From Candidatus Bathyarchaeia archaeon (GTDB lineage: Archaea > Thermoproteota > Bathyarchaeia > 40CM-2-53-6): DNA of 64,000 bases. The notes beneath the pieces are model-generated. The model saw only the letters and a list, made by a program, of their open reading frames with translations, had not been told where the DNA came from and made no database searches. Both the position numbers and the translations under genes were made by a program. The stretch lies in the NCBI GenBank assembly GCA_035935655.1, contig DASYWW010000012.1, positions 141,618-205,617 on the forward strand, given 5' to 3'. Positions 14,616-16,606 of the stretch are shown piece by piece. Every line of letters starts with the position of its first letter. The first letter of the stretch is position 1.

Positions 14616-15182
14616 GTGGCCGACGCTTTCTGGTTGCAACTCTTTAAGGTTCTTCGGGACAGTGGCCTCTCGACCCTCAATGTGGAGGCGAATCCAAATT
14701 CTTTTGAGACTCACCCCGAACGATTGCAAGTCGCGAAGTTCCTGCTGCTCAACGGACTATCGATCGACGGGGGCAAGATTTACGTCAATGAAGTTGAGAT
14801 CCCGATTCTCAAAGTGGCCAGAGCAGTCGGAGTTGATCGTCGTACTGTCAGCGAGACGATCCGCGCGATGAGCATGGACAAAGAAATCAAGATGATCTTT
14901 TCGAATTTGGAGTCGGCTGGACCATCGCTCCGAGCTATGGCCAAGCAAATGGGATTAGGGGTTGTCGAGATAACAGCCGACAATCCGAACAAGGTCGGGA
15001 TTCTCGCAGACGTGTCGAGGGTCTTGGCAGAGAATGGAATTAGCATTAGACAGGCATTAGTCGACGACCCTGAACTGAACCCCAATCCCAAGCTCATCCT
15101 GATCGGGAACAAAGTAATCCCCGGAAAGGCCATTCCACTAATCTTGAAGATTCCCGGAGTTGCCAGGGTATCAGTTTACTAG
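14616..15182 (+). CDS. HTH and ACT domain regulator of amino acid metabolism
   Basis: The 188-aa protein has an N-terminal helix-turn-helix (about residues 60-90, ILKVARAVGVDRRTVSETIRAM) and a C-terminal ACT domain (about 110-188, EITADNPNKVGILADVSRVL) that would bind an amino acid. This matches archaeal COG2150. It is likely a transcription regulator sensing an amino acid; the ligand is unknown. The start is GTG at 14616. Confidence 0.85.
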   Translation: MADAFWLQLFKVLRDSGLSTLNVEANPNSFETHPERLQVAKFLLLNGLSIDGGKIYVNEVEIPILKVARAVGVDRRTVSETIRAMSMDKEIKMIFSNLESAGPSLRAMAKQMGLGVVEITADNPNKVGILADVSRVLAENGISIRQALVDDPELNPNPKLILIGNKVIPGKAIPLILKIPGVARVSVY

Positions 15183-15199
15183 CTACCGAGGACCTCAAT

Positions 15200-15246
15200 G
15201 TTACCAGGGGTAACATTTAAAGCAGAATTATGTTACTTTGAGTAAC
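15200..15246. promoter_or_regulatory. promoter with two matched operator palindromes
   Basis: GTTACCAGGGGTAAC (15200-15214) and GTTACTTTGAGTAAC (15232-15246) share the form GTTAC[CT]-N3-[GA]GTAAC. They flank a TATA box, ATTTAAA (15215-15221). The second covers the expected transcription start. This is a classic repression layout for the regulator-hsp20 operon starting at 15264. Confidence 0.75.
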
Positions 15247-15263
15247 GAATAAGGGTCCTTCAA

Positions 15264-16022
15264 ATGATACTACAGCTGGTCCCCTCAGCGGAAACCCAAC
15301 AAGTGTCTCCTCAAGACATCCTCGACTACAAGACTTTCGCTCGCAGACACCAAAACCCGACAGGAGAGAACGAACTCAAGCAATTCGAGCGGTTTCATGC
15401 CGCATGGCATTTGATTTCTCAGGATATGGAAACATTCCTGGATGCAGAACTGACCCCCAACGACCCTTCGAGATCTATAACTGTGGACGTATGTGGAATC
15501 AAGAACGGAACTCTGACAGCGGTGTTTTGCCAGACCGCGGGACTAGACGAGCCACTGGCAAAATCTCTCGAAACAATCAATAGATCTCAGAATACCACCG
15601 CGTTGATTCTCCTGCCAAGGGAATTGGCTCAGTCTGAGCTAGAGGAATCGGTGCGCGTTGCTCTCCAGACGGGCAAAGCCACTATGGAAGTGCTTGGGTG
15701 GTTCGGTGACACGTTTGAAGAGACATTTCGGGAAACCCTTCGACTCATAGAGCTCTTGGGAAACGAAACCAGAATGAGGATGCTCGCACCGCTTCTTGAG
15801 AGGTCGGGTGCGAAGAGGGATTATCGAACCAGGATAAATCCGAAGCTTGTCTACCACAATATCTCTGCTCTTTCCGATGCAGGCATCCTCGACGAGAATA
15901 CGGAAGGAGCGTACGAATTGAGTCAATTCGGGAAGACAGTCTTCGCGGAATTCATCTCGTTTCTCGAGAGGACACGGAAGACCCTTGATGAGTCAAGAAA
16001 TAGGGAGGTGAAAAATGGTTGA
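15264..16022 (+). CDS. winged-helix transcription regulator upstream of hsp20
   Basis: The 252-aa protein has an N-terminal domain of about 150 residues that I do not recognise. A C-terminal ArsR-like winged helix follows (about 165-235): LIELLGNETRMRMLAPLLE, then KLVYHNISALSDAGIL and a wing ending in YELSQFGKTV. It overlaps hsp20 by 4 bp and its promoter carries two identical-form palindromes. It is probably an autoregulated repressor of a heat-shock operon, analogous in logic to Pyrococcus Phr but not obviously the same protein. The signal is unknown. Confidence 0.8.
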   Translation: MILQLVPSAETQQVSPQDILDYKTFARRHQNPTGENELKQFERFHAAWHLISQDMETFLDAELTPNDPSRSITVDVCGIKNGTLTAVFCQTAGLDEPLAKSLETINRSQNTTALILLPRELAQSELEESVRVALQTGKATMEVLGWFGDTFEETFRETLRLIELLGNETRMRMLAPLLERSGAKRDYRTRINPKLVYHNISALSDAGILDENTEGAYELSQFGKTVFAEFISFLERTRKTLDESRNREVKNG

Positions 16023-16606
16023 GTGAAGATGAATTCTTTTCCAATTGGCTAAGGCGTCGATGGCGGTTCCCGACGGCGAACTTATTCGACGAGCTCGAGC
16101 AGGACTTTGAGTCGATGTTTAAGGACTTGGAACTTCCAAAGGATCTCATCAGAGAGCGAAAGCTTCCGGACGGTGGAACCGTGAGGGAAATGGGTCCGTT
16201 TGTCTACGGCTATTCGTTCAGCATGGGTCCCGATGGAAAACCGGTCATCAGAGAATTCGGTAATGTCAAACCCTCTCTGAAAGGAGGACAGAGTGGCACG
16301 GTTAAGCCTCAGCTCGACGTAAAAGAAGATCGAGAGCCTCTAGTTGATACAATAGTCAGTCCCGATGCGGTGAAGGTCGTAGCCGAGCTTCCAGGTGTCG
16401 AGAAACCTGACATCTCGCTTGAATGCGACGGACGGAAGCTGACGCTCAAGGTGGACACGGACAAACGACGCTACTACAAGGAACTAGAACTTCCTGTCGA
16501 GGTTGACCCCGACACGTCAAAGGCGTCATACAAGAACGGTGTGCTGGAGTTGCTGCTGACTAGGAAGAAAACGGGGTCTAAGGCCAAGCAGATAGCCATC
16601 GATTGA
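16019..16606 (+). CDS. small heat-shock protein (HSP20/alpha-crystallin family)
   Basis: The C-terminal half (about residues 105-195) is an alpha-crystallin domain: DTIVSPDAVKVVAELPGVEK, SLECDGRKLTLKV, and a final YKNGVLELLLTRKK strand. The N-terminal 100 residues are longer than usual and contain a PFVYGYSFSMGPDGKPVI segment common in archaeal HSP20 proteins. The TTG start overlaps the regulator stop, so the two are translationally coupled. A T-rich stretch follows near 16634. Confidence 0.9.
   Translation: MSEDEFFSNWLRRRWRFPTANLFDELEQDFESMFKDLELPKDLIRERKLPDGGTVREMGPFVYGYSFSMGPDGKPVIREFGNVKPSLKGGQSGTVKPQLDVKEDREPLVDTIVSPDAVKVVAELPGVEKPDISLECDGRKLTLKVDTDKRRYYKELELPVEVDPDTSKASYKNGVLELLLTRKKTGSKAKQIAID

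Follow-up and report, generated by a model that had tools for sequence, protein, structure and literature searches.

A TATA-framing operator pair at a regulator–hsp20 operon of a Bathyarchaeia archaeon suggests an autoregulated heat-shock switch

Autoregulated switches coupling a regulator to hsp20 are already known in Euryarchaeota, namely HSR1 and Phr. In the available part of PMC9133787, HSR1 of Archaeoglobus fulgidus is described as autoregulatory, with its gene preceding hsp20 in an operon and its product binding a palindrome before its own gene, and Phr of Pyrococcus furiosus as repressing hsp20 at the start site through a TGGTAA element. The accessible sections of PMC5852551 link HSR1 to HSP20 and CDC48, place the HSR1/Phr heat-shock regulators in arCOG01684, hold the HSR1 family to be ancient, and consider regulation of such a kind possibly common to all archaea. 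HSR1/Phr regulons are described as lacking thermosome genes in the portion of PMC10653856 at hand, and the corresponding portion of PMC10746257 states that no thermal-responsive regulator has been reported for Crenarchaeota.

Here, we describe an operon within a window of 64,000 nucleotides (the whole stretch of DNA that was analysed) from a Candidatus Bathyarchaeia archaeon. Bathyarchaeia share a broad branch with Crenarchaeota, yet stand outside Crenarchaeota in the strict sense. We found no heat-shock regulator described for Bathyarchaeia in the open-licence literature.

Operators and layout of the regulator–hsp20 operon

A preliminary description of this DNA had proposed twin palindromic operators around the promoter of a winged-helix regulator gene coupled to hsp20. 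The features are as follows.

15200-15214, no strand: operator 1, GTTACCAGGGGTAAC, immediately upstream of the TATA box, at the position expected of a BRE
15216-15221, + strand: TATA box TTTAAA between both operators (TTTATA in many relatives)
15232-15246, no strand: operator 2, GTTACTTTGAGTAAC, over the expected transcription start
15264-16022, + strand: regulator gene, 252 aa, with an N-terminal PD-(D/E)XK-like domain and a C-terminal winged helix
16003-16010, + strand: Shine-Dalgarno-like GGGAGGTG, preceding the hsp20 start
16019-16606, + strand: hsp20 gene, 195 aa, TTG start

The palindromes lie where they had been placed, with TTTAAA between them. Both have the form GTTACY-N3-RGTAAC and start 32 bp apart; their form is identical, and their inner bases differ. 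Transcription would be expected to start about 25 nt after the TATA box, under operator 2. The TTG start of hsp20 overlaps the TGA stop of the regulator gene, and the encoded protein scored 162.9 bits against the NCBIfam Hsp20 model NF041800, above the curated cut-off of 140. The upstream neighbour (14616-15182) encodes an ACT-domain protein with a weak helix-turn-helix match; it ends 17 bp before operator 1, and its 3' end looks alike across much of the window's genus. An extra GTTACY half-site occurs 18 bp before operator 1 in several relatives (L010, L011, L012, and L015), where the window has CTACCG (15182-15190).

The operators proved not to be scattered at random through the genome. GTTACN5GTAAC matched exactly twice in the 2,504,272 bases of the own genome, both times in this operator pair, which also gave the sole matches of the pattern GTTACYNNNRGTAAC in the 65 contigs; this pattern matched in 0/100 shuffled windows. 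Perfect 6+3+6 inverted repeats are not themselves rare in the window (32, compared with a mean of 17.7 in simulated windows), but the operator pair is the only case among these 32 in which two repeats at most 60 bp apart have their outer five bases in common, and such a same-arm pair occurred in 0/100 windows simulated with a first-order Markov model.

The motif with one mismatch showed no enrichment in the own genome (28 sites in all versus 74 for the reversed control). We rejected the 26 further one-mismatch sites as weak operators: 25 lie inside mechanically called ORFs of at least 100 aa, and the remaining one (L162), which is near small helix-turn-helix-like genes and has no partner site, was taken as chance. 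A tblastn search with eight heat-shock queries found no heat-shock genes near these 26 sites. Exact N5 counts by themselves do not exceed the reversed control in many genomes, and the argument rests on where the sites lie.

Operators and regulators in related genomes

Matches to the regulator (E ≤ 0.001) were found in 33 of 61 genomes, the own genome included, the weakest of them covering the winged helix only. The 28 named loci carry the taxonomic labels Candidatus Bathyarchaeota (20), archaeon (4), Crenarchaeota (2), Thermoproteota (1), and bacterium (1, one MAG), and the sample names point to a soil habitat. We compared 26 orthologous regulator promoters, leaving out L021 (upstream region masked), L030-L032 (short forms), G242, and weaker matches that gave no locus. 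The second copy of G010 and the copy of G008 also stand outside the 26, and both have the operator pair.

At least one perfect GTTACN5GTAAC site was present in all 26 promoters, and an operator pair, allowing at most two mismatches with Y and R kept, in 20. Operator 1 (at most one mismatch) precedes the TATA box in 25/26 promoters, with one mismatch in L017; the exception is L022, whose perfect site follows the TATA box. In the relatives' promoters, the TATA box sits between the paired operators. A second strict site is absent from L019, L020, L022, L025, L026, and L027; L019 and L020 keep operator 1 only, and L025 and L026 have a second site that breaks the R rule. The pair spacing was 32 bp in 16/16 pairs of the window's family, and 36, 36, 34, and 31 bp outside it (L023 and L024 are near-copies), with 30 bp in L227. 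A same-face reading of the 32-bp spacing was dropped because these other spacings occur. Co-conservation of site and regulator thus supports, at the level of sequence, the proposal that this system has its own operator code and is autoregulated.

Exactly two motif sites occur in 13 of the 18 genomes of the window's genus. Among the others, G007 has no site and no regulator was found there; G002 and G011 have one site each, the first operator of G011 having one mismatch; G010 has four sites and two regulator copies; and G013 has five, two of them at the regulator, two in a repeat of that pair at the end of a contig, and a fifth within an ORF. The conserved ATG start of the regulator is ACG in L015 (G016), L204 (the second copy of G010), and L205 (G008, partly masked), which would fit a non-standard start codon or a gene in decay; the twin operators of these three loci are intact.

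The gene directly downstream of the regulator is hsp20 in 17/26 loci, comprising 16 of the 18 in the window's family and L022 (a partial match). No hsp20 follows in the other nine, of which L029 ends at a contig end; a gene for a small HExxH protein follows in L019 and L020, and cdc48 in G025. In G242, placed outside the class, the order is regulator, HExxH gene, cdc48, and an N5 pair spaced by 30 bp precedes the regulator.

We inspected all GTTACYN3RGTAAC sites in nine genomes belonging to the window's order (G019, G022, G025, G030, and G032-G036). All 21 non-regulator promoters with sites precede heat-shock-type genes or the HExxH-protein gene, and nothing else: hsp20 in nine (seven, plus two of a second hsp20 class), the HExxH protein in seven, thermosome in three, and dnaK-dnaJ and cdc48 in one each. 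Pfam searches on representatives confirmed HSP20, HSP70, DnaJ, Cpn60_TCP1, and CDC48; the HExxH protein had no Pfam match, and homology to L087 served to assign its members. Sites lie at varying distances from the start codon, 178 bp for cdc48 in G019 and under about 80 bp for most others, and several f3 targets have a single site just after the TATA box. G035 has sites, and no long regulator was found in this genome (82% complete).

Among genomes without the long regulator, sites obeying the Y/R rule were absent from G020, G027, and G038, and the single sites of G037 and of G040 fell within ORFs; no N5 site of any kind occurred in G023, G024, G026, G028, G029, G031, and G039. N5 sites that break Y/R lie inside ORFs in G018, G021, G022, G037, and G038. 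The rule is not absolute, because in G008, G032, and G034 such sites are the second operators of the regulator promoter.

Since the site is conserved in 26/26 regulator promoters and all 21 other promoters stand before these genes, we regard the operator code, as read from the genomes, as genuine and as marking heat-shock genes; its occurrence within the window's genus is restricted to the regulator–hsp20 operon. That heat-shock genes follow these sites in relatives also lends support to the stress-switch reading of the preliminary description.

The HExxH protein, of about 165 aa, recurs among the marked genes and operons (L087:643-1134, L080:2360-2845, L076, L090, L225, L226, and L227), and the motif HEYLHSLGH was seen in L080 and L087. 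Matches occur in 35/41 genomes, some with two tandem copies, and the own-genome homologue lies at G000:C46:172808-173179. We consider it a candidate stress metalloprotein.

A shorter sister of the regulator (about 132-145 aa) is homologous to it over the winged helix (hhalign probability 96.7, E = 3.1e-10), has a different N-terminus, and is associated with TTAC-N6-GTAA operators. We sampled the 30 best loci from a search of 201 genomes of the class (L191-L193 are near-copies). Downstream of the short form in these 30 loci were hsp20 in 25, cdc48 in two, and neither within reach in three. At least one TTAC-N6-GTAA site was present in 28/30 short-form promoters and at least two in 24/30, with a TATA-like box between two N6 sites in 18/30; N5 sites were found in 0/30. 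The half-site TTACY is common to both operator types. Outside the class, where five of six matching genomes were looked at, N6 pairs were found in G365 and G274, followed by cdc48, and in G228, followed by the HExxH gene; G393, in which hsp20 follows, has a longer palindrome that is not N6, and in G255, where the short form is internal to an operon and preceded by cdc48, there is no palindrome.

Long and short forms separated into two groups with support 100/100 in an unrooted tree with long joining branches. Operator spacing goes with regulator type, N5 with the long form and N6 with the short form. It follows the winged helix and not the N-terminal domain, because a long-group winged helix without the N-terminal domain in G025 keeps N5 operators. 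This protein (L078:3376-3726) is a natural 116-aa regulator without the nuclease-fold domain; it has N5 twin operators and is followed by cdc48. In the own genome, a divergent short form is encoded directly upstream of cdc48 (L202:139-2850, G000:C37), so that hsp20 and cdc48 each have their own related regulator; no TTAC-N5..7-GTAA site was found in the 5.5 kb around this paralogue.

Domain structure of the regulator

The following features were assigned within the regulator gene.

15264-15701, + strand: N-terminal domain, residues 1-146, with a PD-(D/E)XK-like fold lacking the catalytic motif
15486-15488, + strand: invariant D75, N-terminal domain
15528-15530, + strand: invariant C89, N-terminal domain
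15714-16013, + strand: C-terminal winged helix, about residues 151-250, with a PF25213 match below cut-off and structural matches to ArsR/HxlR/MarR repressors and Phr

The full-length model was of middling confidence (pLDDT 81, pTM 0.60). Its C-terminal half was modelled as a winged helix, for which the best structural matches were repressors of the YodB, HxlR, and CzrA type (Z up to 11.9). Phr (PDB ID: 2p4w) matched this winged helix with Z 9.4 over 80 residues (rmsd 3.8) at 29% identity, the highest identity among the best 50 structural matches; the sequence matches to Phr were not significant (E = 0.21 and 0.2).

The preliminary description had called the N-terminal domain unfamiliar. Modelled alone (pLDDT 90.5), it showed the order H37-52, E56-64, E72-80, E83-89, H96-107, and E111-117, an alpha-beta-beta-beta-alpha-beta core. 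It matched AF1548 (PDB ID: 1y88; Z 8.5, rmsd 3.5 over 102 residues), Can2 (PDB ID: 8bao; Z 8.5, rmsd 4.0 over 136 residues), and Cdn1 (Foldseek probability 1.00, E = 2.9e-4, TM-score 0.42); models that lack a clear match usually reach a Z of 7-8, which the best value here, 8.5, exceeds only slightly. All of the top seven structural matches belong to what we take to be the PD-(D/E)XK group or its kin, and the matched chain ranges presumably cover the nuclease part of these proteins and not the CARF domain. Matches to histone H2B in the N-terminal part (E = 0.76-0.99) were dismissed as noise, as they disappeared with a profile and the predicted fold differs.

D75 is kept in 20/20 aligned sequences. 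At the place of (D/E)XK, position 87 is V/A/T/I and never D/E, position 88 is F/L/I, and position 89 is Cys in 20/20; the D75/C89 motif was placed by strand order and general knowledge of the fold, not by residue-level structural alignment. Taken together, the model, structural matches, and alignment are best explained by a PD-(D/E)XK-like fold without the catalytic motif, in which Cys replaces the lysine. Cleavage by this domain is unlikely, because the motif is lost in 20/20 sequences, and the domain probably serves dimerisation or sensing. More speculatively, and in our judgement rather improbably, the dead nuclease domain could be a stress sensor that responds to damaged nucleic acid, a nucleotide signal, or C89 oxidation and is coupled to a stress regulon in which thermosome and DnaK are included, in contrast to the HSR1 and Phr regulons.

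Proposed mechanism and relation to described systems

We propose, with a probability of about 0.8, that this is an autoregulated heat-shock operon controlled by a winged-helix autorepressor that works like HSR1 and Phr and is released by protein-damaging stress. The operator pair, its framing of the TATA box, its co-conservation with the regulator, and the target genes, all read from DNA, point to this model, and protein–DNA binding, repression, and a heat response are what it predicts. The regulator would be a dimeric repressor whose dimers bind both GTTACY-N3-RGTAAC operators. Occupied operator 1 would mask the side of the TATA box that TFB recognises, and occupied operator 2 the start, so that TBP/TFB and RNA polymerase would be blocked. 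By analogy with HSR1 and Phr, heat or other protein damage would make the repressor let go, and the signal may be other than heat. Release would give a burst of regulator and translationally coupled Hsp20, after which new repressor would shut the operon off, a negative feedback through the first gene. The same operator would serve a wider heat-shock gene set in related families and only this operon in the window's genus.

The position of operator 1, which abuts the TATA box in 25/26 promoters and is the only operator kept in L019 and L020, would also suit an activator that recruits TFB from operator 1, operator 2 then serving for further activation or for modulation; archaeal activators can recruit TFB from a position adjoining TATA/BRE. 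We nevertheless judge this reading improbable, since operator 2 lies over the expected start and several f3 targets have their site only downstream of the TATA box, the position described for Phr as a repressor in the available part of PMC9133787. Alternatively, the palindromes could be bound by a different protein, such as the short-form paralogue by cdc48, with the long regulator controlling something else. The presence of that paralogue in the own genome, the common TTACY half-site, and G035, with sites and no long regulator found, speak for this option. We hold it to be very improbable, because N6 sites occur in 28/30 short-form promoters and N5 sites in none, whereas N5 sites stand at long-form promoters; moreover, G020 and G027, which have the short form only, lack the site, that of G037 is inside an ORF, and no TTAC-N5..7-GTAA site occurs in the 5.5 kb around the own paralogue.

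A chance or structural origin of the inverted repeats, for example as RNA hairpins, with no regulator involved, could appeal to the excess of perfect 6+3+6 repeats in the window. It is contradicted by the conservation at all 26 regulator promoters and by the genes behind the 21 other marked promoters, and operator 1, being upstream of the TATA box, would fall outside the expected transcript, which argues against an RNA hairpin. We consider this explanation extremely improbable and retain the autorepressor model.

The same palindromes at chaperone genes of related archaea point to a real, largely undescribed heat-shock control system. With its regulator, its precisely defined operator, and its set of targets, it could be examined in vitro with one protein and 50-bp DNA. 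Its regulon size differs among related families (one operon in the window's genus and four promoters in G022, G025, G033, and G036), and two related regulator types differ by one base in operator spacing. As far as the open-licence literature shows, several elements are new: the lineage; an operator pair that frames the TATA box, together with its sequence; the inclusion of thermosome and dnaK in the marked set; the domain with a nuclease fold; and the correspondence between the type of regulator and the spacing of its operators.

Compared with the short-form regulators, the long form has a homologous winged helix, hsp20 or cdc48 operons, and promoter palindromes, but is set apart by its N5 operators, its nuclease-fold N-terminus, and its separate clade. 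Its N-terminal domain appears, from the model, to resemble PD-(D/E)XK nucleases of the Can2/Card1/Cdn1/AF1548 type in fold; unlike them, it retains only the Asp and has V/A/T/I-F/L/I-Cys in place of (D/E)XK in 20/20 sequences. With Phr, as far as it is described in the sources available, the regulator has in common a winged helix of the same fold and a half-site, GGTAA, akin to TGGTAA, whereas Phr has its winged helix at the N-terminus (chain 1-90) and the present regulator at the C-terminus (154-241). Because this N-terminal placement is not matched, we describe the regulator as working like HSR1/Phr and do not file it as a member of their family. As in the described parts of the HSR1 system, a regulator–hsp20 operon has a palindrome at the regulator's own promoter, here by sequence. 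The HSR1 operator reported there is CTAAC-N5-GTTAG, in contrast to the TATA-flanking GTTACY-N3-RGTAAC pair found here, and the PD-(D/E)XK-like domain distinguishes the present regulator from HSR1, which was compared by description only. Unlike the HSR1/Phr regulons, as far as the available accounts describe them, the marked genes of the relatives include thermosome and dnaK.
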